Below are positions 6,768-31,495 of a stretch of DNA of 53,241 nucleotides, one piece after another. The translations under genes were made by a program, and so were the position numbers. This DNA is from Spirochaetales bacterium (GTDB lineage: Bacteria > Spirochaetota > Spirochaetia > JAFGDJ01), in contig JAFGDJ010000166.1 in assembly GCA_016932135.1 (NCBI GenBank), positions 1 to 53,241 on the forward strand, read 5' to 3'. Below the pieces are notes generated by a model. The model was not told where the DNA came from and searched no databases. It saw nothing but the letters and a program-made list of their open reading frames with translations. Within the stretch, counting starts at the first letter, position 1, and each line of letters begins with the position of its first letter.

Positions 6768-7956
6768 AGATCTGAACCCGGCGGTTTCGCCCCCGGCCTT
6801 CCTCCGTGTCGTTGGGAGCCACCGGTTCGGTGCCCCCCCGCCCTTCGTAGAGAAAACGCCCCGCCGGGATTCCCCGGGCCGCCAGTTCATCAGCCAGGGT
6901 CTTGGCCCGTTGAATCGACAGCTCCATCTGGCTTTCCGGGGTTCCCACGTCGGCGGTATGCCCCACCACCAGGAAGGTTTTGTCTTCCAGTCTTCGAAGG
7001 ATAGCGGCCAGGGTGTCGATCTTTCCTTTCTCCTCCGGCAGCACCACCGCCTGATCGGGGACAAAGTGGATGACCTCCAGGTTGATGGAAACCCCGATAC
7101 CGGTCTCTTCCACCGTCACCCCTCCCGTGCCGGTCCGCTCCAGTTCTTCCCGGATCTCTTCGGTGAGTCTTTTCCGCTCCCCGGGCAAGCCGCCGCCGTA
7201 CCAGGTCAGGATAAAGCCCGAAACGACGAGCTGCCGCCCCCCGGAGAAATCGTAGACCTCGTCCACCGTATCCCGCATGAAGATCTTCCCGCTCTGCTGG
7301 TTCAGGTAGATGGTGACCAGGTGTTTTCCCTGGACCTGCGTAAGGTTAGGGTCCCCCCAGGGGTCGGCCCCCTGGCGATAGCGGACGGCGTACTGGGCGT
7401 TAATGACCTCGACGGGTTCTCCGTTCAGGTCACCGGGGCCGGCGTACTCGAATTCACAGAGAAAGGGGACCCGGGTGGGAACCATATCCCTGACGGGCTG
7501 TAAAATCCGAAGCCCCTCGCCCCGCCAGCGTTCCCCCGGTGCCGGGGTTTCCTCGGGAAAAGCGGGAAAGTTCAGCAGAAAGGGCCATTCCTGCCCTGGG
7601 GGCACCGAAAACACTCCACCGGGACCCGGAAGAAGAGATCCTTTTTGGGAGGAATCTATCCGCCGGGCTATATCCCGGGCATCCCGGGTCATCTGTTCAT
7701 ACTCAAAGAACACCCCGGTATACCCTGCCTCATCGGGATTCACTGAAAACACCGTTCTGCTCTCATTGTACAGGTACCCCCGGTATACCCCGTTCTCCCG
7801 GATTCGCAGGTTCTGCTTTTCCCGCTGGGTAAAGATATCCGAAGGGGTCCAGTCCAGGGCAAATGAAACCAGGGGAAGAAAAAAGAACAAACAAAAAAAG
7901 GCCCCAACGAAACGCGGGGCCTTTACTAAGCAGGTCATGCTAATTTTACCAGACAT
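6751..7956 (-). CDS. OmpA-family protein, secreted, with large N-terminal domain
   Basis: 401 residues as drawn. The signal peptide follows a second ATG six codons in (TCLVKAPRFVGAFFCLFFFLPLVSFA), so the start could be 7956 or 7938; neither has a good Shine-Dalgarno. The first ATG overlaps the flaA2 stop region, which allows coupling. The C-terminal 110 residues form an OmpA peptidoglycan-binding domain (VIHFVPDQAVVLPEEKGKIDTLAAIL, VVGHTADVG, SIQRAKTLADEL, GRNRRVQIFI). The first 260 residues are beta-rich with no recognised family. It probably tethers the outer membrane or a periplasmic structure to the cell wall. A perfect intrinsic terminator lies inside its signal-peptide codons. Convergent with tatD, 17-base overlap. 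Confidence 0.82.
   Translation of the reverse strand: MSGKISMTCLVKAPRFVGAFFCLFFFLPLVSFALDWTPSDIFTQREKQNLRIRENGVYRGYLYNESRTVFSVNPDEAGYTGVFFEYEQMTRDARDIARRIDSSQKGSLLPGPGGVFSVPPGQEWPFLLNFPAFPEETPAPGERWRGEGLRILQPVRDMVPTRVPFLCEFEYAGPGDLNGEPVEVINAQYAVRYRQGADPWGDPNLTQVQGKHLVTIYLNQQSGKIFMRDTVDEVYDFSGGRQLVVSGFILTWYGGGLPGERKRLTEEIREELERTGTGGVTVEETGIGVSINLEVIHFVPDQAVVLPEEKGKIDTLAAILRRLEDKTFLVVGHTADVGTPESQMELSIQRAKTLADELAARGIPAGRFLYEGRGGTEPVAPNDTEEGRGRNRRVQIFILED
7890..7924 (-). terminator. Intrinsic terminator of the flaA operon, inside the OmpA-family signal-peptide codons
   Basis: On the minus strand AAAGGCCCC-N10-GGGGCCTTT is a perfect 9-bp stem followed by TTTTTTTGTTTG. It begins 22 bases past the flaA2 stop codon, a normal place for a terminator, yet it is in the reading frame of the downstream OmpA-family protein. 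Confidence 0.8.
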
Positions 7957-8662
7957 CCTGAATATCGTCGGTGTCCCTGCTCACTTCGGAGAAAAGATCC
8001 GTGGTGGCCCTGAGATCGTCAAAGTAAATATAGTAATTTCCGACGGTCTCGGCGGGGTCACATTCGATGAGAAACCCTTCGACCTTGATGCCCATCTTGT
8101 TGTTGTAATGGTAATCCCTTTGAACGATGGACGTCGGAATTGCCACAGTCATCCGCTTCCATCCGGAAAAATTCAAGGTTCCCACGGTTAGCTCGGCCTT
8201 CTTTCCAAAGGTATCGGAAATAAGAACCTTTAAGGTGTGCTTCGTATTCCGGCCGATCACCCAAACCGAAAGGGTTTTGGTTATGCCCTCGATGGCAAGA
8301 GGATGGGACGGATACACGGCAAAATGGGTCATGGACCGTTTATAGAACTGTACTTTTACACCCAGGACATAATCGTCCGCTTCTTCGATTCCCAGGGCTT
8401 CTTCATCTTCGATGGGTTCTTTTTCCTCAGGTCCGCCTTCGATTCTTCGAACGGTCACAAAACCCAGATCCCGGGGAATGCTGGCGGTCCAGAAACCCGC
8501 GTCTTCAAATTTAGTCACCGACACTTCTTTGAGAAGCTGCTGAGCCGTATCTACACCAATCTGAGAGGGATCGGCTTCGCCTACCCTGCTCATACCGTTC
8601 TGCGCCAGGAGGACTCCGGCGGTAAGCAAAAATAGCAGAATAAATAAATTCCGTCGTTTCAT
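7946..8662 (-). CDS. flaA: Flagellar filament sheath protein, FlaA family (FlaA2-like)
   Basis: 238 residues with a signal peptide ending near VLLAQ. FlaA-family features include the repeated pattern of a beta-rich core (LSVWVIGRNTKHTLKVLISD, GTLNFSGWKRMTVAIP) and the ending YYIYFDDLRATTDLF. FlaA proteins are exported by Sec and coat the FlaB core of spirochaete periplasmic flagella. The gene starts one base after the flaA1 stop; its ribosome-binding site GGGGAGGAA is made by the last flaA1 codons, so the two are translationally coupled. T. pallidum likewise has two adjacent flaA genes next to a class II aldolase gene, and fba is close by here. It is shorter and more diverged than flaA1. Confidence 0.85.
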   Translation of the reverse strand: MKRRNLFILLFLLTAGVLLAQNGMSRVGEADPSQIGVDTAQQLLKEVSVTKFEDAGFWTASIPRDLGFVTVRRIEGGPEEKEPIEDEEALGIEEADDYVLGVKVQFYKRSMTHFAVYPSHPLAIEGITKTLSVWVIGRNTKHTLKVLISDTFGKKAELTVGTLNFSGWKRMTVAIPTSIVQRDYHYNNKMGIKVEGFLIECDPAETVGNYYIYFDDLRATTDLFSEVSRDTDDIQDVW

Positions 8663-8663
8663 C

Positions 8664-9395
8664 TTATTCCTCCCCCCACATTTCTTCCATTTTCTCCGGC
8701 CAGGTCAGATCGTCACCGTCAAAACGGGATTCAAACATATCCGTGAGAATTTTGATCTGGTCGATGTACATGTAAAAATCCGCCACCCGTTCGGTGGGTT
8801 TTGTCCAGAGAACAAGCTTCTCCAGAGCCAATCCCTGTCGATGGGGAACATAGGTTTCCGACTGGGGAATGTAGTGGGGAATATCGGCTCTCAGATTCCT
8901 CCAACCGCGGTAGTTGATACTTCCCAGGTGAATAACCCAGACAACCCCCCGGTAATCACTGATATGGACTTCCATGTAATAATCGTACATGGAACCCCAG
9001 ATCCATAAATCGATCTGTTTTGCTCGGCCGGGGATGGGAATCGGGTTGGCTTCCAATTCACCGTCTTCACCCTCTTTCACGGGAATGAATTCCAGGTAAT
9101 TATACCCCATGCGGTCAAACTTGGCGTTTACTCCAAGCACCTGCAGTTCGTTCTCGTCTCTGTTTCGGCCGAAAAGGGCTTCAGGCCACGCGTCGGCATA
9201 GGTGATCTTGGGATAATCTTCGGTAATGAACTTACTCCCCCGGACATACCAGTCGGTAGTACGGGTCTCAGGATCGAAACTTTCGAGAATCCGGGATTCC
9301 AGGTTTTCCGTAACCTCATCCGCCGTTACGAAAACGGGCAAGAGTACACCGAATAGCAGTAAAAGGCACAAAAAAAGGAGACTGCCTCGTTTCAT
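8664..9395 (-). CDS. flaA: Flagellar filament sheath protein, FlaA family (FlaA1-like)
   Basis: 243 residues from the ATG at 9395, which has AAGGAG six bases upstream and opens the signal peptide MKRGSLLFLCLLLLFGVLLPVFVTA. The two upstream ATGs in the track lack this spacing. Family features: ESFDPETRTTDWYVRGSKF, KQIDLWIWGSMYDYYMEVHISD, GSINYRGWRNLRADIP and DFYMYIDQIKILTDMFESRFDGDDL, which parallel the second FlaA. It should be a periplasmic sheath subunit of the flagellar filament. It is first in the flaA1-flaA2 operon behind a near-perfect sigma-70 promoter rather than a sigma-28 one, as expected for Sec-exported sheath genes. Confidence 0.9.
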   Translation of the reverse strand: MKRGSLLFLCLLLLFGVLLPVFVTADEVTENLESRILESFDPETRTTDWYVRGSKFITEDYPKITYADAWPEALFGRNRDENELQVLGVNAKFDRMGYNYLEFIPVKEGEDGELEANPIPIPGRAKQIDLWIWGSMYDYYMEVHISDYRGVVWVIHLGSINYRGWRNLRADIPHYIPQSETYVPHRQGLALEKLVLWTKPTERVADFYMYIDQIKILTDMFESRFDGDDLTWPEKMEEMWGEE

Positions 9396-9448
9396 TCTTA
9401 ACTCCTTCATTACATACTTATAGTAGTATCCATTGTCAGGCATGTAGA

Positions 9449-15430: not shown

Positions 15431-15718
15431 ATGGAAAAACGCGCGTTTCAGGTACAATTGCTGGGTACTTCCTTTATTGTACAAACGGATGAAGACGCCG
15501 ATTATTTCACGCGCCTTTTGGATTACGTAAGCAAAAAGACCGACGAGATTGAATCAGCCGTACGGGTAAAAGATCCATTAAAAACCGCTATTTTAACATG
15601 CCTGACCATCGCGGATGAGCTTCACAAAGGCTTCGTTATGGATCAGGATCTGCATGAGGCCGAGAAGATAACCCTCAGCCTCTTGGAGAAAATTGACAGA
15701 AGTCTGGATAGTAGATAA
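15431..15718 (+). CDS. zapA: Cell division protein ZapA
   Basis: 95 residues. The N-terminal part (FQVQLLGTSFIVQTDEDADYFTRLLDYVSKKTDEI) matches the ZapA globular domain (V.I.G..Y.i....EEYL..lA..vd..i), and the second half is a long helix (TAILTCLTIADELHKGFVMDQDLHEAEKITLSLLEKIDRSL) for tetramer formation. ZapA cross-links FtsZ filaments at the division site. The gene follows the coiled-coil gene by nine bases and is followed directly by 6S RNA, an arrangement also found in E. coli and many other bacteria, which supports both calls. Confidence 0.88.
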   Translation: MEKRAFQVQLLGTSFIVQTDEDADYFTRLLDYVSKKTDEIESAVRVKDPLKTAILTCLTIADELHKGFVMDQDLHEAEKITLSLLEKIDRSLDSR

Positions 15719-15899
15719 CCCTGCGGTGTTCGGGAGGGGTTTATATCTCTTGGGTCAACCCATCAGAACGGGATTCCAAATCTCGGGGTTGAATGCTCTC
15801 CGCCTTGAGCGGTTCGGCACAGGATGCCCCGATGCGGAAACCCACTTGAACAATTGGAGTTCAAGAGATTTCTCCCCAAGCGGCATCGCGGGGATTTTA
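15714..15899 (+). ncRNA. ssrS: 6S RNA
   Basis: About 185 nt directly after zapA. The 5' end CCCTGCGGTGTTCGGG matches the conserved 6S start (CUGNGRUGUUCG), and the 3' end AAGCGGCATCGCGGGGATT matches the conserved closing strand (GGCGGCAUCNCGGRGAUU). CCCTGCGGTG pairs with CATCGCGGGG. ACTTGAAC-AATTGGA-GTTCAAG is the conserved hairpin near the 3' side, and the long stem is interrupted by an unpaired centre. 6S RNA mimics an open promoter and binds housekeeping RNA polymerase in slow growth. Ends are approximate; the 5' end overlaps the zapA stop. Confidence 0.85.
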
Positions 15900-15966: not shown

Positions 15967-16794
15967 ATGGCTTTAATTACCGGACAACAATTATCAAGAT
16001 ATTTCGAACAGTTCAGATCTATTGACGTAACTTTTACCAAGGGAGTTGTTCAAGTTACCGGACTCAGGACGGATCAGAATTTTTTGAAATGCCTGGGGAC
16101 TCAATGGCCCTGTGTCATCTATTCCTCTTCCATGGTGGGAGCGAAGGTCGTGGCCGGATTGACACAAGACTTTTTCAATAAAATCAGATCCGCCAACAAC
16201 GTGGTCTCCTTGCGGTTTTCTTTCAATCAACAGGATAAAACAGATCCCCTGGCTTTTTTTATCCCCGCGAAAATTACCGGTTACAACCCGTACAACAAGG
16301 AAAAACCCGATCTTATGTTCATCACCCTGGATTTTACTCAGCGGCCGGCGGATGACCTGATAGCTATTCTGGGGCGTCTTCTGGAAACCAATGTCAACTC
16401 AAAAAAGCGAAAGGAAGAGCGTATCGAGGTTACCGACGAGGTGCAGCGTTCTTTAGGTCTGAAATCAAAAAGCACCTATATCTACATTGAAAGCATCCCA
16501 AGAAAATGTATTCTCAGGGACATCTCCTTTTCCGGGGCGAAGTGTATCACCTCCGGTATCGGGAAATTCCTTGATAATAAGCCGATTCACCTGAGCCTGG
16601 AATTCGACGACGCGAAAAAGCCTACCCAGATTCCCGGAACGATTATCCGCCATGAAGCGGTTCAGGGAAGAAAGGATATTCTGGCCCTGGCCATTCATTT
16701 CGACGAGGCGTCGGTTCCCATGGATTACAAAATGCGGATAAATGAGTATATCCGCGTACCGAAAAAACATCTCTCCGCTTTAGAGGATGCATGA
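15967..16794 (+). CDS. PilZ-domain c-di-GMP receptor protein with PilZN-like N-terminus
   Basis: 275 residues. The C-terminal PilZ domain carries IPRKCILRDISFSGAKCI, that is the R...(R/K) switch region and D-S-GA strand that bind cyclic di-GMP (about residues 178-196), and ends in LAIHFDE. The N-terminal 150 residues (KGVVQVTGLRTDQNFLKCLGTQWPCVIYSSSMVGAKVVAGL) resemble the YcgR/PilZN-type beta domain common in spirochaetes. No membrane segment. The next gene overlaps by four bases (ATGA). In spirochaetes such proteins couple c-di-GMP to motility. The leader looks too short for a Shine-Dalgarno. Confidence 0.82.
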   Translation: MALITGQQLSRYFEQFRSIDVTFTKGVVQVTGLRTDQNFLKCLGTQWPCVIYSSSMVGAKVVAGLTQDFFNKIRSANNVVSLRFSFNQQDKTDPLAFFIPAKITGYNPYNKEKPDLMFITLDFTQRPADDLIAILGRLLETNVNSKKRKEERIEVTDEVQRSLGLKSKSTYIYIESIPRKCILRDISFSGAKCITSGIGKFLDNKPIHLSLEFDDAKKPTQIPGTIIRHEAVQGRKDILALAIHFDEASVPMDYKMRINEYIRVPKKHLSALEDA

Positions 16795-17931: not shown

Positions 17932-17959
17932 TAAAGATTAACACCCCCCCCGTCGATAG
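17932..17959 (+). promoter_or_regulatory. Sigma-28 (FliA) type promoter of flaB1 with a C8 tract in the spacer
   Basis: TAAA (17932-17935), 16 bases, then GTCGATAG (17952-17959), against the consensus TAAA-N15-GCCGATAA. The spacer contains eight consecutive C (17944-17951). Loss of one C would give the consensus spacing. The predicted leader is close to 200 bases. Confidence 0.6.
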
Positions 17960-17980: not shown

Positions 17981-18010
17981 CCTGTTGACGGCCGAAACAG
18001 GCCGGTTTTT
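17981..18010 (+). terminator. Hairpin plus T-run: terminator of the TPR gene or attenuator of flaB1
   Basis: CGGCC-GAAACA-GGCCG followed by GTTTTT. The alternative pairing CCTGTT/AACAGG (17981-17986 with 17996-18001) shares bases with it and would exclude it. Because it lies downstream of the sigma-28-like promoter, it would also be within the flaB1 leader. Confidence 0.5.
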
Positions 18011-18102: not shown

Positions 18103-18163
18103 ACCCCCGTTTAAGGGGGGTCAAGGGCAAGGATGCCCGAATACATTTTCACGGAGGATACGT
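18103..18163 (+). promoter_or_regulatory. flaB1 leader with candidate CsrA-binding hairpin and GGA-type ribosome-binding site
   Basis: ACCCCC-GTTTAA-GGGGGT (18103-18121) is followed by GGGCA-AGGA-TGCCC (18125-18138). The loop context CAAGGATG matches the CsrA consensus CARGGAUG. The Shine-Dalgarno CGGAGGA (18152-18158) supplies further GGA, 22 bases downstream of the loop GGA. This is the paired-site layout by which CsrA blocks flagellin translation. Confidence 0.65.
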
Positions 18164-19024
18164 ATGATAATCAATCACAACATGAGCGCTCTCTTCGCCA
18201 ACCGGGAACTGGCAAACACCCACAACAACCTGACGAAGAACATGGAAAAGCTCTCATCGGGTCTCAGGATCACCAGGGCGGGAGATGATGCTTCCGGTTT
18301 GGCGGTATCGGAAAAAATGCGGTCCCAGATCAGGGGCTTAAAGCAGGCTTCCCAGAATGCTTCCAACGGCATATCCTTTATCCAGTCGACTGAAGGGTAT
18401 CTCCAGGAAACCCAGGACATCCTGCAGCGCATGAGGGAACTGGCCGTCCAGTCATCCAACGGCATCTACTCGGAAGAGGACCGGATGCAGATCCAGGTGG
18501 AAATCTCCCAGCTGGTGGATGAAATTGATCGAATCGCTTCTCACGCCCAGTTCAACGGTATGAACATGCTCACCGGTCGTTTCGCTTCTGAAACAGGAGA
18601 GAATACCGTCACCGCTTCCATGTGGTTTCACATCGGAGCCAACATGGATCAGAGGGAAAGGGTTTACATCGGCACCATGACCTCTTCGGCGTTGAAGATT
18701 CGTGATCTTGGTTCCAACGAAATCCTGACCTTAGAGTCTCCCGAAGAATCGAACCGCGCCATCGGCACCATCGACATGGCCCTGAAGAAGGTCAACAAGC
18801 AGCGGGCGGATCTGGGAGCCTACCAGAACCGGCTCGAGCATGCTGTGCGGGGCCTTGAAGTCGGCGCCGAAAACCTGCAGGCCGCTGAATCGAGAATCCG
18901 GGACGTGGACATGGCTTCCGAGATGGTGGAATACACCAAGAATCAGATCCTTGTTCAGGCCGGTACGGCGATGCTCGCCCAGGCAAACATGAAAACCCAG
19001 TCTGTCTTGCAATTACTGGGGTAA
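18164..19024 (+). CDS. flaB1: Periplasmic flagellar core flagellin FlaB
   Basis: 286 residues from the ATG at 18164; the 42 extra codons in the track are leader. It begins [36 protein letters not shown] and ends [33 protein letters not shown], the D0/D1 helices that pack the filament core; the variable domains are absent, as usual in spirochaetes. No signal peptide, since it leaves through the flagellar export channel. ACGGAGGA precedes the start. The sigma-28-like promoter and a structured leader with a CsrA-like site indicate tight control. flaB2 follows 241 bases later and is very similar. Confidence 0.95.
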
Positions 19025-19222: not shown

Positions 19223-19265
19223 AAAGGCCAAGGAGGCCTTTTGAATTATATCAAGGAGGGTATAT
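19223..19265 (+). promoter_or_regulatory. flaB2 leader with AAGGA-loop hairpin and GGA-type ribosome-binding site
   Basis: AAAGGCC-AAGGA-GGCCTTT is a 7-bp stem whose whole loop is the CsrA core ANGGA. The Shine-Dalgarno TCAAGGAGGG follows, with its GGA 23 bases after the loop GGA. The spacing copies the flaB1 leader although the surrounding sequences differ. Confidence 0.65.
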
Positions 19266-20111
19266 ATGGTTATAAACCACAACATGAGTGCCATGTACGC
19301 CAACCGTACTCTGGGTGTTCAGTCGGCTGCCACAGCGGGCAACATCGAGAAGCTCAGCTCCGGTATGAGAATTAACAAAGCCGGGGACGATGCTTCAGGG
19401 CTTGCAGTTTCAGAAAAGCTTCGCAGCCAGATCAGAGGACTGAACCAGGCGGAAAGAAACATTCAGAACGGCGTTTCTTTCATTCAGACAACGGAAGGAT
19501 ACCTGCAGGAAACCCAGGACATTCTACACCGCCTCAGAGAACTGGCGGTTCAGTCTGCCAACGGTGTATATACCGATGAAGACAGAATGCAGATCCAGGT
19601 TGAGGTATCCCAGCTGATCGACGAAGTGAACCGCATCGCTTCCCACGCCCAATTCAACGGCATGAATATGCTGACGGGTAATTTTGCTCAGGAAGGGGAA
19701 GGAATCATGCAGTTCCAGGTTGGCGCGAATATGGACCAGAATGAAAGGGTCTACATCGGCACCATGACGGCTTTGGCTCTTGGTCTTGAAGGCGAACAGG
19801 GGCTTGATAACGCTCTTACTATCGCCGATCCGGATCAGGCCAACAGGGCTATCGGTACCGTTGATTCCGCTCTTCAGAGAGTGTCACGGCAGCGGGCCGA
19901 CCTTGGCGCGTATCAGAACCGGTTCGAAATGGCATCAAAGGGTGTCGCCATCGCGGCGGAAAACCTGCAGGCCGCAGAATCGAGGATCCGCGATGTGGAT
20001 ATGGCTTCCGAGATGGTAGAATATGTGAAAAATCAGATTCTTACCCAATCCGGCACCGCCATGCTGGCCCAGGCCAACACCAAGACCCAGTCGGTTCTTC
20101 AGTTATTGTAA
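19266..20111 (+). CDS. flaB2: Periplasmic flagellar core flagellin FlaB, second copy
   Basis: 281 residues. It starts [59 protein letters not shown] and ends [32 protein letters not shown], so it has the D0/D1 helices only. It differs from FlaB1 mainly in the middle (about residues 135-200) and in the helix after the KLSSG motif. AAGGAGG precedes the ATG. I do not see a convincing sigma-28 promoter in the 110 bases after the flaB1 terminator, only a weak GCCGCATA. Spirochaete filaments usually mix several FlaB subunits, so the two are likely co-polymerised. Confidence 0.95.
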
Positions 20112-22665: not shown

Positions 22666-23586
22666 GTGGAAATTCGACTGAATCGGGAACCCCTCGACAT
22701 CACCATGGAGGATGAAAAGGTCCTGTCAGATGTGGTGGATGAACTATACAGGCTCATTCAGGACGCGGGATTCCATATATCCCGGATTCAGCACAACGGA
22801 GAGGAACTCATACCCGAAGAGAAAACATCCTGGGCCGATCTTCCCCTGGAGCACGTGGGGGTTCTGGATATAGAAGCGAAGACCCTCCGGGAAGCTACCT
22901 TTGAACACCTCAACACGGTTCGCCAGTATATTTCCATGGTTCGCGGGGCTTTTCTGAAAGAAAACACCCCCCTGTTGACCGATCTTTCCATCGACTATCC
23001 CTCGGTGAGGGATTCCCTGGACCCCCTGATTTCCAGTCAAGGGCCGGGGAACCCCCTGGCCGAGATCCTGGATGAGCAGATACACCGTTTTAATGTCTTC
23101 TCGGATCAGCCGCTGTATAAAGATTCCGACTCTTTAATCGAGCTTTTAAATTCCCTCTTAACGTTGCTGGCTGAACGGATGCGGGAAATTTCGTCTCCGG
23201 CGGAAGAGCTGAAAAAGTCTTCCGAAGCTTTAAAAGCTATGCTTGGTTCCCTCCGGGATGTTTCCCTCCTTCTCCAGACCGGGAAGGATAGGGAAGCCAT
23301 GGCTTTGGTCTTATCGTGTATCGAACTGGTCTCGAAGATTATCCGGCTCTACCCTCTTATCCTGGACGAGTCTGGTATTTCTCCGGATACCCTGACCGTG
23401 GGGGAGAGCTCTATTAAGGATTTCTATAGTGATTTTAACGCCACCATGGAAGAACTTATCCAGGCTTTTCAGGTTAACGACAGTGTGCTGATCGGTGATC
23501 TCCTGGAATATGAAGTTGCTCCCAGGCTGGAATCCCTTCTTCCCTCCCTGGCGGATATTGTTTCCTCCGAGGAACGAACACAATGA
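22666..23586 (+). CDS. Hypothetical protein in the fliS position: beta-grasp-like N-terminus plus helical domain
   Basis: 306 residues starting at GTG (22666) with AAGGAGAA upstream. The first 75 residues (MEIRLNREPLDITMEDEKVLSDVVDELYRLIQDAGFHISRIQHNGEEL) suggest a ubiquitin-like beta-grasp fold. The rest is helical; the end (LLQTGKDREAMALVLSCIELVSKIIRLYPLIL and VNDSVLIGDLLEYEVAPRLESL) resembles small flagellar chaperone bundles. fliD is usually followed by fliS or fliT, and neither is present. I propose a spirochaete filament-export chaperone, but that is inference from position and helix pattern. Its stop overlaps the next gene by four bases (ATGA). Confidence 0.6.
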   Translation: MEIRLNREPLDITMEDEKVLSDVVDELYRLIQDAGFHISRIQHNGEELIPEEKTSWADLPLEHVGVLDIEAKTLREATFEHLNTVRQYISMVRGAFLKENTPLLTDLSIDYPSVRDSLDPLISSQGPGNPLAEILDEQIHRFNVFSDQPLYKDSDSLIELLNSLLTLLAERMREISSPAEELKKSSEALKAMLGSLRDVSLLLQTGKDREAMALVLSCIELVSKIIRLYPLILDESGISPDTLTVGESSIKDFYSDFNATMEELIQAFQVNDSVLIGDLLEYEVAPRLESLLPSLADIVSSEERTQ

Positions 23587-24692
23587 TTGTTTCACCCGTT
23601 CTTTTACAGTTGCAACCCATGATCAAGGCAGTCGATTCAAAGACTATTGTTCTGGGTATCGTTCTTTTCGCCGGTTTTTTCCTGGTCCTGATCATTGCCG
23701 GCCGTGTATCGGGGGGTAAAAAAGATCAATCCGGCCAGGAAGCAAAACCGATGCGCTTTCGGAAATCCACCTTCCGAAAAAAGGCCACCGCCATCGGTCT
23801 TTCCAAGATACAGATCAGTACCCTGGAAAACTTCATGGAAAACTACACGGTCCGTCAACCCTACGCTCTTTTAAAGAATTCGTCCCAGCTGGACCTGATC
23901 TTAAAAAAAGCCCTGGCGGATATCGATAACCAGGTGTCTTCTCCCGATGTGAAGGAATCTCAGCGTTCCACCATTTACGGCATTAAGCAGGTAGTGGAAC
24001 GGCAGAGGCAGGGCCGCTCTTCTTTAAGCGGCTCAAAACAAATCAGTATCAATCAGAGCCTGATGCTCAGTCCCGAATCGGGAGGGCGCTTTCCATCCAC
24101 AGTGGTGGGAAACCTCCGGGATATGCTGGCGGTACAGATTCCGAGGAATGAAGGGCTGCAGGAAATCCGCTGGAAGCGGGGGACGAAACTGAATGTGTTC
24201 TTCTGGAAGAGTAACGGGCAAAGCTACTCCTTTCTTACCAAGGTCGCCGGTTATAACGCTTTAAAGGGCACTACCTGTCTTCTGCTGCAACATTCCAATG
24301 CCGTAAAGCAAGCCCACCAGCGACGCTATCGCCGGAAGACCCTGGAACGCCCCACCTATTTCTACCCGGTTCGGATCCTAACCATGGGTACGGGAAGAAA
24401 ACAGGAAAAGAAGGCCTTTGTGGAGACCAAGAACGGCGCCCTGGGGACAATTCTTGATATTTCCGCAGGAGGGTGTGCCGTAAAAACCTCCTATCCTCTG
24501 CTAAAGGGCAGCCTGATAAAGGTGGAGTTCGAGACCGAAAAGCAAAAGTCCGTGGCCGCTTTTGGAAAGGTGAAAAATATGACCCGGGCGCAACCGGTCG
24601 GCGGCATCATGAACATCATGTTCACCCGCCTTTCCAGAAAGAACCTGAATACCATCAACGCCTATATCTACGAACTTGAAAAAAAAGCCTAG
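23583..24692 (+). CDS. Membrane-anchored PilZ-domain protein
   Basis: 369 residues. One transmembrane helix near residues 22-42 (TIVLGIVLFAGFFLVLIIAGRV) with a basic region after it. A long middle region ends in a YcgR-like beta domain (EIRWKRGTKLNVFFWKSNGQSYSFLTKVAGY). The PilZ domain starts at RRYRRKTLERPTYFYPVRI and continues with GTILDISAGGCAVKTSYPL, so both the RxxxR switch and the D-SxGG motif are intact for c-di-GMP binding. It is in the fliD transcription unit and overlaps the preceding gene. It probably sets motor or export activity by c-di-GMP, like YcgR, although membrane anchoring is different. Confidence 0.82.
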   Translation: MIVSPVLLQLQPMIKAVDSKTIVLGIVLFAGFFLVLIIAGRVSGGKKDQSGQEAKPMRFRKSTFRKKATAIGLSKIQISTLENFMENYTVRQPYALLKNSSQLDLILKKALADIDNQVSSPDVKESQRSTIYGIKQVVERQRQGRSSLSGSKQISINQSLMLSPESGGRFPSTVVGNLRDMLAVQIPRNEGLQEIRWKRGTKLNVFFWKSNGQSYSFLTKVAGYNALKGTTCLLLQHSNAVKQAHQRRYRRKTLERPTYFYPVRILTMGTGRKQEKKAFVETKNGALGTILDISAGGCAVKTSYPLLKGSLIKVEFETEKQKSVAAFGKVKNMTRAQPVGGIMNIMFTRLSRKNLNTINAYIYELEKKA

Positions 24693-26060: not shown

Positions 26061-27164
26061 ATGGAAGAGGATTTCTTTGCCGATCTGGAACCTCTGGAAA
26101 CGCTGGAAGAACTGGAAAACCTTGAAGAACTCCAGGATTACGGCGATCTTGACGTAACGGTCTTAGAGGATCCCTTTATCGCTCGACTGATCAGCACTTT
26201 AGACAGGAGTTCCCTCCCCTTTCTGCTCATCGATACCTCATTACGGATTCTCTGGAGAAACGATGCCTTTCCCCGGATGTTCGGGATGGAATCCTGCGAC
26301 GCGGGGAACCACCTTTTCGATCCCTTCGACGGCGTTCCCGGCTCTTCATCCGGACCGTCCTTTACCGAGGCCATAAAATCTCCTGAGACTGGTTTCAGTT
26401 ACCGGGGCCGGGTTCAATCTTCAGATCCTCATCGTCTTACCCTGCAGGCCAACATGCTCGTCTCTCCCCTTTTTTCCGAAGAAAGCGGCCATAAGGTTCA
26501 TCTGGGTTATTCGGTATGCTTCGATGATGTGACCGAAGAAAACAAAAATATTCTCCGGGGAACCTTCTTAAGTCTTCTCCATGCCTCGCAGATGAAGGAC
26601 AACGATACGGGAAAGCATATCAAACGGGTTGGAGAATATTCCCGTCTCATGGCAAAGAGCCTCATGGAAGACCCGGCCTTCCCCGAAGTAACACCGGAGT
26701 TTATCGATAATATCACTTTTCTTGCCCCCATGCACGATGTGGGGAAGATCGGCACCCCCGATGATATTCTCAATAAAGAAGGCCCCCTGGAACCCTGGGA
26801 GTGGGATGTCATGCGGGAGCATACCATCAACGGCGCCTATATCATGGCTACCTATCCCCACCCGATGGCGAAACAGATAGCCCTCTCCCACCACGAACGC
26901 TGGGACGGCTCGGGATACCCGTACAACCTCTCCGAAGAGATGATCCCCCTTTCCGCCCGGATTGTCGCCCTGGCGGATGTGTATGACGCTCTGCGGATGA
27001 AAAGAAGTTATAAGGAAGGCTTTCCGCATCAAAAGGCCATGGAGATTATACAAACCTCTTCGGAAAGTCATTTTGATCCGGCCATGGTGAATTGCTTCGT
27101 GAAACTTTCCGGGACGATTCGAGAAGTCTATGAATTGCTGAAGGATGAACCTGAAAAAGATTAA
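26061..27164 (+). CDS. PAS-HD-GYP protein, probable c-di-GMP phosphodiesterase
   Basis: 367 residues. A PAS-like sensor region lies at about residues 45-160 ([50 protein letters not shown]). The HD-GYP domain follows: [29 protein letters not shown] at about 224, [11 protein letters not shown] and [13 protein letters not shown], all metal and GYP residues intact. Such enzymes hydrolyse c-di-GMP to pGpG or GMP. An acidic coiled N-terminus ([25 protein letters not shown]) precedes PAS. AAGGAG lies 12 bases before the ATG, rather far. Converges with csrA; the two stop codons share the bases TTAA. Confidence 0.9.
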
Positions 27165-27400
27165 TTGGTTTTATCGGGCTTTGGAAAGATCACATCCAGC
27201 ACCGGCAGGTCCGTGCCCGCTGCCGCGGCGGCCCGGTTTTCCTGCTGAATGGCTTCGTAGACTTCATGCCGGTAGATCTTAACTTCTCGCGGCGCCTGGA
27301 TACCGATCTTTACCTGGTCGCCCCGGATATCCACGATGGAAATTTCTACCTGATCGCCGATATTGATGCTCTCGTTGACCTTTCTGGCGAGGATCAGCAT
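27161..27400 (-). CDS. csrA: Carbon storage regulator CsrA (translational repressor)
   Basis: 79 residues. [51 protein letters not shown] contains the full set of RNA-binding residues, including the N-terminal LILARK strand and the PREV.IYR.E.. strand. The dimer binds GGA in hairpin loops, often over ribosome-binding sites. It is last in the flgN-flgK-flgL-fliW-csrA operon and overlaps fliW by seven bases. In B. subtilis CsrA represses flagellin (hag) translation and is sequestered by FliW; Borrelia CsrA also represses flaB. The two flaB leaders here carry fitting sites. The tail after residue 55 ([20 protein letters not shown]) is longer than usual. Confidence 0.97.
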
Positions 27401-27849
27401 GCATCATTCCTTAAGGCAGCCAACTCATCGAGAATATAGTGCCGGACCTTCCAGGTGTCGTTGATCGAAACTGACTGTCGGCCGATTCTTTTTTCACGAT
27501 TTATAATAATGGGACCCTGAAGGTTCGCCGTCATCCGGGAATGATTCTCCGGAATGGTAACAATGGCAAAAACCAGGGTGTTGCTCCCGTCATCATTATC
27601 CAGTTCCAGTTCTTCCAGGTCCCCATCCTGGATATCCAGGGTATAATCGGGACGGAACACCTTTGGGTTGATAAGAACAAAGGCGATCTCGGGGACCTCC
27701 AGGGATTGAAGCCAGTAGAAGGGCTGCTGCACCGCGTCAAGGAGAACATATTCGCGGAGATTCTCAAATCCGAGAATACCGAAAGGAAAGAGAATCTTCT
27801 GACGTTCATCCACGTCCACCGGTCCGTAAGCCTTGGTCTGTACGCGCAT
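27394..27849 (-). CDS. fliW: Flagellar assembly factor FliW (CsrA antagonist)
   Basis: 151 residues. The family pattern is clear: [51 protein letters not shown], then [37 protein letters not shown]. FliW binds either free flagellin or CsrA, so flagellin secretion releases FliW to block CsrA and flagellin translation resumes. Located between flgL and csrA, as in B. subtilis and T. pallidum. The seven-base overlap with csrA suggests matched synthesis of the two partners. Confidence 0.95.
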
Positions 27850-27855
27850 AGATTT

Positions 27856-29100
27856 TTACCTCAGGTAGTCCATTAAAGTAGGCTGCAACACTCGGGCGGC
27901 GGTCTGAAGAGCCGCCTTGTGGGTATATTCCAGCATCTTCAGGTCGGTAATGGCCTCGGCCAGATCAATATCCGTTTCCTTGGAGTTCTTCTCTTTCAGT
28001 TCCGGGATTTCGTAAAGAAGCCGTTTTTCCACGGTCTGCATCCGTTCATCCAGGGCCCCGAGGCCCGCGATGGAAGACAAGAGGGTGTGATGAGCCAGGT
28101 CAAGTCCCTTCAAGGCTCCGCCGCCGATTTGAAGGGTATCGCCGCTGTAGAGGCTGTCCCGAAGATTCATCATCATATCGAAGACCGATCCGCCGGAGAC
28201 CCGGGCGTCCCGGTGGTAATTCAGGGGAGGTCTTCCGTTTTCCGCCAGAATACCGAGGTCCTTCAGTACCCGGCCATCTCCCCGGTCTTCCAGCATCAAC
28301 TGGTGGGGAACGGTGGTGGTCAACACCAGGCTGTTTCTCACAGGGTCCAAGGACGCCTTTACCGCCGCCCCCGATTCATTGATCTTGGCGATAACGCTGT
28401 GAACCGAATCCCCACTTTTCAAGGAAATTTCCATGCCGTCCACCAGAATGAAGGAATCTTCCTGCACCTGAAACGCCTGGGCGTCCCGCTGTGAATAGAC
28501 CTGCTGATGTTCCGCCCAGAAGACCCTGTTTCCCTGGAGAAGCTGGTCGACATAACTGCCTTCGGCGATCTCCACCTTCCCCGAATTGGCCGTGCCGAGG
28601 TAGTCCACCGAGGTGATGACCTGTTTGTCCGTCCAGGGGACGCTGCCGGTAAGCACCCGAAAGGCCTGGCCTTCGGTCTTGTCCCCCGCGAAAAGGGCCG
28701 AGCCCTCCCCGTCCACGGCATTACCGATCTCCACCAGTTCGTTCAGCAGTTCGTTCACTTCTTCCGCCATGTAGGCCCGTTCTTCCGGTGTATATACGCC
28801 GTTGGCTCCCTGGACGGCGATTTCCCGCACCCGCTGAACAATATCGTTGGCCGAACTCATATACCCTTCGGCGATTCGCAGGTCTCCCCGCAAGGTGTCG
28901 ATGTTCCGGGTAAACCGGGTGAGCCGCTGAATCTTGGAGGTGTAACGGGTGGAATGGGCCGCTGCGATGGGATCATCCCGCAGTTCCTTGATCCTGGTTT
29001 GCCCGGCCATCCGGTTCTGCAGCTCGCTCATTCTCCATTCCCGCATTCTGGCTTGATACTGCATATCGTCATTGGGCATTTGTGTGCTTATTCGTTTCAT
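27856..29100 (-). CDS. flgL: Flagellar hook-filament junction protein FlgL
   Basis: 414 residues. It has flagellin-like terminal helices: MKRISTQMPNDDMQYQARMREWRMSELQNRMAGQTRIKELRDDPIAAAHSTRYTSKI at the start, IVQRVREIAVQGANGVYTPEERAYMAEEVNELLNELVEIGNA next, and DIDLAEAITDLKMLEYTHKAALQTAARVLQPTLMDYLR at the end. It forms the second junction ring between hook and filament. No signal peptide. It follows flgK by six bases in the junction operon and is followed by fliW six bases on. Confidence 0.94.
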   Translation of the reverse strand: MKRISTQMPNDDMQYQARMREWRMSELQNRMAGQTRIKELRDDPIAAAHSTRYTSKIQRLTRFTRNIDTLRGDLRIAEGYMSSANDIVQRVREIAVQGANGVYTPEERAYMAEEVNELLNELVEIGNAVDGEGSALFAGDKTEGQAFRVLTGSVPWTDKQVITSVDYLGTANSGKVEIAEGSYVDQLLQGNRVFWAEHQQVYSQRDAQAFQVQEDSFILVDGMEISLKSGDSVHSVIAKINESGAAVKASLDPVRNSLVLTTTVPHQLMLEDRGDGRVLKDLGILAENGRPPLNYHRDARVSGGSVFDMMMNLRDSLYSGDTLQIGGGALKGLDLAHHTLLSSIAGLGALDERMQTVEKRLLYEIPELKEKNSKETDIDLAEAITDLKMLEYTHKAALQTAARVLQPTLMDYLR

Positions 29101-29106
29101 CTAGGG

Positions 29107-30984
29107 TTATACCCCCATCCTGTTAATAATGGTATCCAAAAGGGTGTTAAAGGTCGTGATAAACCGGGCCGCCGCGGCATACCCGTGCTGGTATTTAATG
29201 AGCTGGGCGAATTCTTCATCCACGTTGACCCCGGAAATCGAGTCCCTCATGGATTTCAGTTCCTGCATAATGGCGTTCTGGGTCTCGTAGGCCCGCTGGG
29301 CGGTCTCGCCTTTCAACCCCGCGTTGGCCACGGTTTCGGAAAAATAATTGTCGAAACTGGTAATGCCCCCGGCCATAACGTCGTTGTTTCTCAAGGCCGC
29401 CACGGCCAGGGCGGCCGAGCCGTCACCCTCTTCCGCCGGTCTGCCGTTAATGCCGAAACCTGCCGCCACGGAAAGAGGATCGGCCTTCACGGCGGGGTTT
29501 ATCTCGATCCACCCGGCGGGGTGGCTCAAGGGAGCCACGGCGTATTCCAGCCCCCCGCCCCTTAAAGACACCGCCGCGTCGGCGGTATCCCAGCGGTAAG
29601 CGCCTTCGGGTCCCGGATTGATCAGGATACCGGCGTAGCCGGTGAGAAACTGCCCCGAATCTTCAAGATACCGCAGCACGAAATCCGGGTTTCCTTCCTG
29701 AGCCGCCGGGGTTGCCCGGAGGGACAATGTTCCTTCCCGGGACAGCCGGGCGGAGACTTCGGCGCCGGAAACATTGATTCGGTGAACCAGGTCGGCTACC
29801 GTATCGGTGGGGAAATACTCCACCTCCAGGGTTCCGCCGGGAGCCGCCAGAGTGATAACCCCGGCCAGGCCGATCTGCTCTTCCGGATGCAGGGTGTTGG
29901 TTCCGTTTACCCGGAACAACCAGGTGGAATCGAACTCACCGTCGCCGTTTCGGTCGTAATTACCGGTAATATTTTCCACAAAGGGGTATTCGGTAAAAAA
30001 CTCCAAACCCGTTTTACCGTTGGCGCCGTAGGCCGAGGTGTGAATTTCATTGACCAGGTCCATGAAATTCACCACCATCATATCGAGGTTTTGAATTTCA
30101 TTTTTCAAGTCGATATCCCGGAGTTCCACTAACGCGGCGAGCTTTCCGCCGGCAAAATAGGCGGTTTCACCGGAATCCTGCCAGGTAACCCGGGAATAGC
30201 CCTCATTCAGCGGCGAAGGTTCTGCTCCCAGGGGATGAACGTTCCGCCCCTGCAGCAAATGCAGTCCCCCGGTATGAATGGTAAACTCGTCGGGGTCCCG
30301 GCCGTCCACGGTTATGTTGATGATTCCCGAGAGTTCCTGCACCAGCAGGTCCCGCCGGTCCAAAAGGTCGTTGGGGTTGTCTCCCATAGCCTCGATCTTG
30401 ACGATCTGTTCATTCACCTCCGCGACTTCCTTCAAAAGGGCGTTTACCCGGGTCACGGTAACCTGAATTTCTTCTTCCAGCATGTCCCGGATCTCTTTCA
30501 AGGAGGCGAATTCATGGTGGAACCCCTCCACCAGGGCCTCTCCCCGTTCCAGCACCGCCAAACGGGAAGCCGTTTCTTCCGGATGCAGGGATAATTCCTG
30601 CCAGGAATCCCAGAAGCGGTCCATCAGGGTTCTGGTGGAGAGCTCCGTGGGTTCGTTATAGACCTGTTCAACCATCAGAAGATACCGGTCCATGGCTTCC
30701 CAGTAGCCCGTTCCGTTGGCCTGGGCGACGATCCGTTTTTCCAGGATCTGGTCCCTCACCCGCTCTATCCGCTGAACCACGACTCCCTGGCCGACCTGGC
30801 CGGGGGTTTCCTCCCGGCTTAATCCGGGCATATAGAGGGGGCTCATGGGAGTAAGCTGCACCCGCTGACGGCTGTATCCCGGATTGGAAGCGTTGCTGAT
30901 ATTATGCCCCACGGTGGAAAGACCCTGGGTGTGAGCCACCAGGCTCCTCTTGCCGATTTCAATTCCCGCGAAGGTGGATTGCAC
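29107..30984 (-). CDS. flgK: Flagellar hook-filament junction protein FlgK
   Basis: 625 residues from GTG 30984. The track start 49 codons earlier is wrong: the flgN stop and AGGAG lie directly before this GTG. N-terminal FlgK motif STFAGIEIGKRSLVAHTQGLSTVGHNISNASNPGYSRQRVQL; C-terminal GVNVDEEFAQLIKYQHGYAAAARFITTFNTLLDTIINRMGV. It forms the first ring at the hook end and contacts FlgL and FlaB. The core is enlarged by beta-rich inserts (about residues 330-530), longer than in enterics. A region DRNGDGEFDSTW (about residues 346-357) looks like an EF-hand-style calcium loop. Confidence 0.94.
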   Translation of the reverse strand: MQSTFAGIEIGKRSLVAHTQGLSTVGHNISNASNPGYSRQRVQLTPMSPLYMPGLSREETPGQVGQGVVVQRIERVRDQILEKRIVAQANGTGYWEAMDRYLLMVEQVYNEPTELSTRTLMDRFWDSWQELSLHPEETASRLAVLERGEALVEGFHHEFASLKEIRDMLEEEIQVTVTRVNALLKEVAEVNEQIVKIEAMGDNPNDLLDRRDLLVQELSGIINITVDGRDPDEFTIHTGGLHLLQGRNVHPLGAEPSPLNEGYSRVTWQDSGETAYFAGGKLAALVELRDIDLKNEIQNLDMMVVNFMDLVNEIHTSAYGANGKTGLEFFTEYPFVENITGNYDRNGDGEFDSTWLFRVNGTNTLHPEEQIGLAGVITLAAPGGTLEVEYFPTDTVADLVHRINVSGAEVSARLSREGTLSLRATPAAQEGNPDFVLRYLEDSGQFLTGYAGILINPGPEGAYRWDTADAAVSLRGGGLEYAVAPLSHPAGWIEINPAVKADPLSVAAGFGINGRPAEEGDGSAALAVAALRNNDVMAGGITSFDNYFSETVANAGLKGETAQRAYETQNAIMQELKSMRDSISGVNVDEEFAQLIKYQHGYAAAARFITTFNTLLDTIINRMGV

Positions 30985-30994
30985 GGTGTTGCTC

Positions 30995-31495
30995 CTAAAG
31001 ACTGGTATTGAGAACCATAGGTTCCGCCTGGATGTCCATGGCTCCCCCATGCTTTGAATAAATTTTCCCCTTCTGATAGGGGAAAATCTCCTCCAGAATC
31101 TGTCGTACCGTTCCCGAAACCGTGCGGACATAGGAATCTATACACAGGGTGATACTCTGAATTCGTAAGGCTGCCATTTTCAGCTTCCGATAGAGTTCAA
31201 CACTGATATCCCTTTCCCGGTCGGGGAGATGAAACACCACATGATAGAAACTGGCGTCTTCACTCTCACCATAGCCGGTTTTCAGGGCTGTAAAGGCCTC
31301 ATCCCGCAAACGCTCAACCGCTTCAATCTTCTCAGCCAGGGGAGAAAGCTGTTGAATGGTGAGATTTAATTCACTCCAATTGTTCTGCCTGACGCAGGAA
31401 CGCACCATTTCCTCTCTACTCCCGAATTCCTCCAGAAGCAGAATTTCCTCCGCCATGAGATCAAGTAATTTTGTAACTGCCGCTCTTTGTTCCAT
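30995..31495 (-). CDS. flgN: FlgN-family flagellar export chaperone
   Basis: 166 residues, all helical (VTKLLDLMAEEILLLEEFGSREEMVRSCVRQNNWSELNLTIQQLSPLAEKIEAVERLRDEAF). The pattern of a long E-rich helix, followed by a helix with L..L...I...E..R...F, fits FlgN, which guards FlgK and FlgL before export. Its stop codon TAG forms part of the flgK ribosome-binding site (TAGGAG), so flgK translation is coupled. It is first in the operon, behind a sigma-28-like promoter. Sequence similarity to classical FlgN is low; position is the stronger evidence. Confidence 0.75.
   Translation of the reverse strand: MEQRAAVTKLLDLMAEEILLLEEFGSREEMVRSCVRQNNWSELNLTIQQLSPLAEKIEAVERLRDEAFTALKTGYGESEDASFYHVVFHLPDRERDISVELYRKLKMAALRIQSITLCIDSYVRTVSGTVRQILEEIFPYQKGKIYSKHGGAMDIQAEPMVLNTSL

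Follow-up and report, generated by a model that had tools for sequence, protein, structure and literature searches.

Flagellin leaders of a Spirochaetales bacterium carry a conserved CsrA-type hairpin and a second site at the Shine-Dalgarno sequence, a probable translational operator

The leader of B. subtilis hag carries two CsrA sites, one of which lies over the Shine-Dalgarno sequence, and FliW acts as the antagonist of CsrA (PMC7652899). Among spirochaetes, CsrA has been shown experimentally to target B. burgdorferi flaB (Sze et al. 2011, as cited in PMC8668096 and PMC3757020), and a 2022 paper mentions CsrA sites close to the Shine-Dalgarno sequences of both flaB1 and flaB2 in T. denticola (PMC9481697). 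In L. biflexa flaB3 and L. interrogans flaB4 the CsrA site is a hexaloop with GGA at the Shine-Dalgarno sequence, and for flaB3 binding is lost on exchange of GGA for AAA (PMC8668096). With flagellin leaders already established as CsrA-controlled in B. subtilis, Borrelia and L. biflexa, the mechanism as such is not new. Spirochaete motility relies on multi-flagellin periplasmic filaments. The present analysis concerns a stretch of 53,241 nucleotides (the window; contig JAFGDJ010000166.1) from the assembly of a Spirochaetales bacterium (GCA_016932135.1), a draft of 260 contigs that is 82% complete. In the window, the leader of the flagellin core gene flaB1 is very probably a two-site CsrA operator that represses translation and is relieved by FliW.

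The flaB1 leader and the csrA-fliW locus

The flaB1 gene (18164-19024, + strand) encodes a protein of 286 aa that begins with MIINHNMS and matches the Pfam families Flagellin_N (7.7e-46) and Flagellin_C (1.2e-28). Its leader contains the CsrA-type hairpin GGGCA-AGGA-TGCCC (18125-18138, + strand), made up of GGGCA at 18125-18129, AGGA at 18130-18133, with the loop GGA at 18131-18133, and TGCCC at 18134-18138. The segment CAAGGATG (18128-18135) equals CARGGAUG, the core of the RUACARGGAUGU consensus obtained for CsrA by SELEX, and its GGA is displayed in a tetraloop/hexaloop hairpin. A second A-N-GGA site, CACGGAGGA (18150-18158, + strand), lies over the Shine-Dalgarno sequence ahead of the ATG at 18164, and the spacing from GGA to GGA is 22 nt, within the range of 10-63 nt between sites that a CsrA dimer can bridge (PMC7652899). 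The sequence-only reading had described the hairpin, its loop, the Shine-Dalgarno sequence and the 22-nt spacing (18125-18158) in the same terms and had equated the loop with the core of the CsrA consensus; these descriptions are borne out in full.

The minimum-energy folds of the flaB1 leader include the GGA hairpin, and the GGA of the Shine-Dalgarno sequence lies in a weak loop closed by 3 pairs only. The folding energy of the leader is unremarkable against shuffles (z about -1.5 to -1.9), so that the case must rest on comparative tests. Directly 5' of the GGA hairpin, the fold contains a stem ACCCCC/GGGGGU (18103-18121, + strand) of uncertain role; of 103 leaders, 18 have an adjacent upstream stem (6.2 in mononucleotide shuffles), and the stem was excluded from the operator because it is not a general part of these leaders. 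An Rfam scan of the window returned a 6S RNA (15715-15898, + strand; RF00013, 65.8 bits) as its sole match, the GGA hairpin matching no described Rfam family. The 6S RNA lies directly 3' of a zapA-like gene in the order infC-rpmI-rplT-zapB-zapA-6S, with infC and rpmI called by reading.

The csrA gene (27161-27400, - strand; PF02599, 3.3e-25) encodes a protein of 79 aa in which L4, R6, R44, I51 and N55 are retained. It overlaps by 7 nt (27394-27400) with fliW (27394-27849, - strand), whose product matches the Pfam FliW family (2.2e-39) and the FliW chain 5dmb_A (1.7e-26), so that the csrA-fliW pair does lie in the same window as flaB1, as had been claimed. Upstream of the pair are a flgL-like hook-junction gene (27856-29100, - strand; Flagellin_N and Flagellin_IN), which is probably flgL judging by the gene order flgK-flgL-fliW-csrA, and flgK (29107-31131, - strand; FlgK_D1, 1.3e-59). 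The closest solved relatives of the window CsrA are 1t3o (CsrA) and 5dmb_D, the CsrA chain of an entry that also contains FliW. CsrA proteins regulated by FliW are recognised by R44, N55 (with V/I51) and a C-terminal extension (PMC7829508); the window CsrA has the extension and keeps both R44, which binds RNA, and N55, which contacts FliW. On all of these family features, the window CsrA is predicted to be of the RNA-binding and FliW-binding type, and FliW belongs to its family by its FliW domain and by adjoining csrA. Across the class, csrA was detected in 148 of 198 genomes and fliW in 148 of 198, and among the matches listed the positive genomes agree; flagellated genomes lacking csrA are almost absent from the sample, and those that occur are incomplete.

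Conservation of the hairpin and of the Shine-Dalgarno site

Flagellin starts were gathered from relatives outside Leptospira and their leaders were reduced to 168 non-redundant sequences, in which a hairpin was counted when a stem of at least 5 pairs enclosed GGA in a loop of 4-7 nt within the region -75 to -13. Such a hairpin is found in 126 of the 168 leaders, against a mean of 5.1 and a maximum of 11 in dinucleotide shuffles, and GGA is the top-ranked loop trinucleotide among all 64. Of 133 non-flagellin leaders from the same loci with a GGAG Shine-Dalgarno sequence, 7 have the hairpin, and one of these resembles an unrecognised flagellin. By family of the genomes used, the hairpin is present in 29 of 31, and all eight genomes tested that were labelled Borreliaceae, partly from the position of csrA, carry forms such as GGCAAA-AGGA-TTTGCC, as well as CANGGAGG. 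About one quarter of the leaders are without a simple hairpin by this definition, and many of these belong to Treponema-type or second-copy genes.

Across an alignment of 49 near-type leaders the loop GGA never varies and the changes in the stem are compensatory, with a covariation score of 0.679 against 0.241 when shuffled. The stem is paired in 93% of cells against 33-43% with the partner slid, a percentage that is inflated because the leaders of this alignment (A1) were preselected for the hairpin, the unselected counts being the fair measure. Loss of the loop GGA and stem from relatives had been set beforehand as the refutation of the CsrA reading; with 126 of 168 leaders positive and compensatory changes in the stem, both are kept, and on this comparative evidence the pairing and the loop are conserved by selection. 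A chance hairpin in a GC-rich leader would explain why the fold of the single leader is unexceptional, but it is refuted by conservation, given the counts (no shuffle exceeding 11), the covariation and the flagellin-only ranking in whole genomes described below, and its probability is close to nil.

Class-wide, the loop context is CA-N-GGA-UG, which is the CsrA SELEX core, and the base before GGA is free to vary while the A two positions before and the U after are retained. SELEX ligands mostly have four or fewer contiguous pairs (PMC7652899), unlike many of the stems in the flagellin leaders, which have 5-9. These features also bear on whether the leaders might instead hold a CsrA-independent element for translation or stability, with the loop GGA as a standby ribosome site or the stem as a 5' stabiliser, a reading with which the likeness of GGA to part of the Shine-Dalgarno sequence, the high translation of flagellin mRNAs and the folding of the complete 204-nt flaB1 leader, which is more stable than shuffles (z -3.5), would agree. 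However, a free base before GGA together with a kept A and U is the specificity of CsrA and not that of anti-Shine-Dalgarno pairing, and the element tracks genomes with csrA and fliW; we regard a CsrA-independent role as very unlikely.

The Shine-Dalgarno sequences of flagellin genes have the form A-N-GGAG in 95% of cases and the fuller form CANGGAG in 87%; the corresponding figures for the leaders of other genes are 36% and 13%. The GGA of the Shine-Dalgarno sequence lies in a loop of its own, closed by at least 5 pairs, in 70 of the 168 leaders (about 11 expected). The distance between the two GGA motifs is 20-32 nt in 103 of 131 hairpin-bearing leaders, which falls inside the bridging range given above and is therefore compatible with bridging by a dimer. 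Individual leaders, among them L046 3000, L121, L124, L131 and L142, vary in how the second site is presented: in some lineages the Shine-Dalgarno GGA is itself in a strong loop of the type GTTTC-AAGGAG-GAAAC, and several leaders of family f12 have kept the stem, lack the upstream GGA and contain AATATTC-AAGGAG-GAATATT.

In the 19 far-type leaders, where the loop is 38-60 nt from the Shine-Dalgarno sequence, the intervening stretch tends to fold (median z -1.7), reaching p<=0.05 in 9 of them; several of the 19 are interrelated. The median number of unpaired nucleotides is 11 in far-type and 13 in near-type leaders, which is suggestive of a spacer hairpin in the far-type leaders. In L009, L010, L054, L061 and L107, whose GGA hairpin and Shine-Dalgarno sequence are 39-60 nt apart, the gap was seen to be filled by a second hairpin.

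These constraints on the second site help to weigh the possibility that CsrA binds the hairpin yet chiefly protects or destabilises flagellin mRNA instead of blocking the ribosome. The mRNA of E. coli flhDC is protected by CsrA, and in the present leaders the hairpin sits upstream of the Shine-Dalgarno sequence and not over it. Overexpression of CsrA in L. interrogans raised the flaB1, flaB2 and flaB4 transcripts (PMC8668096), an opposite sign which means that the direction of regulation need not be repression everywhere. On the other side, the Shine-Dalgarno site is as strongly constrained as the loop, its position and the narrow spacing fit ribosome occlusion, and repression has been reported for B. 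burgdorferi flaB, B. subtilis hag and L. biflexa flaB3. An action mainly through mRNA stability thus appears unlikely, and a two-site operator acting on translation is the preferred reading.

Flagellin paralogues, flaA and promoters

The second flagellin gene of the window (19266-20111, + strand; 281 aa, Pfam) is preceded by the GGA-loop hairpin AAAGGCC-AAGGA-GGCCTTT (19223-19241, + strand; covariance-model match, E 0.006), and its Shine-Dalgarno sequence is presented as the GGA loop TATATC-AAGGAG-GGTATA with 6 pairs (19247-19264, + strand). An equal arrangement of hairpin and Shine-Dalgarno sequence precedes the third flagellin gene, on contig C33. The element had been described on flaB1, where it is indeed present, but an account confined to flaB1 proves too narrow, as all three flagellin (FlaB) genes of the genome carry it and flaA does not.

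A covariance model of the hairpin and Shine-Dalgarno sequence placed the three flagellin genes at ranks 1-3 in the 3.26 Mb assembly; ranks 1 and 2 were included in training, and the second flagellin of the window (rank 3) was left out. The next matches, considered as further CsrA targets, were rejected as being at chance level, the one at E 0.018 not lying upstream of a long ORF and the one at E 0.085 lying before a fabF-like gene. Strong matches inspected in 16 other genomes were flagellins, those outside training including G022:C10 (E 2.6e-8), G111:C1:871290 (E 2.1e-6) and G026:C1:1702182 (E 4.6e-5). As the model includes a Shine-Dalgarno sequence of the flagellin type, this specificity applies to the flagellin layout and leaves room for CsrA targets of other layouts.

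The true flaA gene, on contig C108, has a putative TTGACA-TATAAT promoter and a short leader, in which a GGA hairpin was looked for and was absent. A candidate sigma-28-type promoter, TAAA-N16-GTCGATA (17932-17958, + strand), was found by pattern scan 205 nt upstream of the flaB1 ATG. Of the 168 flagellin upstream regions, 39 contain sigma-28-like sites, and shuffled controls gave 1. The contrast that had been drawn between FlaA and FlaB therefore stands, with a TTGACA-TATAAT sequence and no GGA hairpin on the one side and a candidate sigma-28-like promoter with the hairpin on the other.

Several other features were noted around these genes. A terminator-like hairpin with a T-run (17989-18004, + strand) lies between the sigma-28-like promoter and flaB1; it was considered as an attenuator and rejected, with one such hairpin found against 1.7 expected. 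The window also contains two tandem FlaA-family genes (7946-9443, - strand), additional to the main flaA of contig C108; a TTGACA-TATAAT promoter-like sequence precedes the upstream member. PilZ-domain genes (15967-16794 and 23583-24692, both + strand), one with PilZN3, flank the flagellin cluster, which suggests a c-di-GMP input near it.

Proposed mechanism and comparison with known systems

The two-site reading draws on the element and its placement, conservation, covariation and flagellin specificity, together with a CsrA/FliW pair of the right type. That CsrA binds the leader, bridges its two sites as a dimer, represses translation and is countered by FliW is proposed for this organism by analogy with other bacteria. 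One CsrA dimer would hold the upstream loop GGA in one RNA pocket and the A-N-GGA of the Shine-Dalgarno sequence in the other and, bridging sites about 22 nt apart, would block ribosome binding. While flagellin is under export, free FliW, encoded in the same operon as CsrA, would bind CsrA and the leader would be released; flagellin accumulating in the cytoplasm would hold FliW, and CsrA would repress again. One operator type would act on all three FlaB genes and none on the sheath gene flaA. Such a common operator on each flaB would provide a mechanism for matching core subunits to export capacity, and the sheath protein, with flaA lacking the operator, would be set separately. More tentatively, and with rather less than even confidence, a single ancestral two-site operator may sit on essentially every FlaB paralogue of the Spirochaetia, with its geometry under selection and, in leaders whose upstream loop has shifted away from the Shine-Dalgarno sequence, a gap-filling hairpin keeping the unpaired distance near 11-13 nt, CsrA being mainly a dedicated flagellin repressor inherited with fliW. 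The element is easily recognised and is thus usable for predicting CsrA control in uncultured spirochaetes and for designing minimal RNA probes.

A literature search of incomplete coverage turned up neither a hairpin that covaries across the class and sits on all FlaB paralogues nor the spacer hairpins. Three features look new, namely the covarying element shared across the class, its presence on every paralogue and the spacer hairpin between distant sites. The T. denticola account consists of a single sentence, without structure, conservation or data from other taxa (PMC9481697), and for L. biflexa flaB3 and L. interrogans flaB4 the site described is that at the Shine-Dalgarno sequence alone (PMC8668096). 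B. burgdorferi flaB, as far as the citing papers relate, resembles flaB1 of the window in that CsrA sites lie around the Shine-Dalgarno sequence of a spirochaete FlaB gene. The hag/CsrA/FliW system of B. subtilis is alike in its two-site flagellin leader with one site at the Shine-Dalgarno sequence, and the window CsrA aligns best to CsrA chains of the B. subtilis type and the window FliW to 5dmb. In contrast to B. subtilis, the flagella here are periplasmic and three flagellin paralogues each have an operator of their own, on which CsrA and FliW would putatively act.
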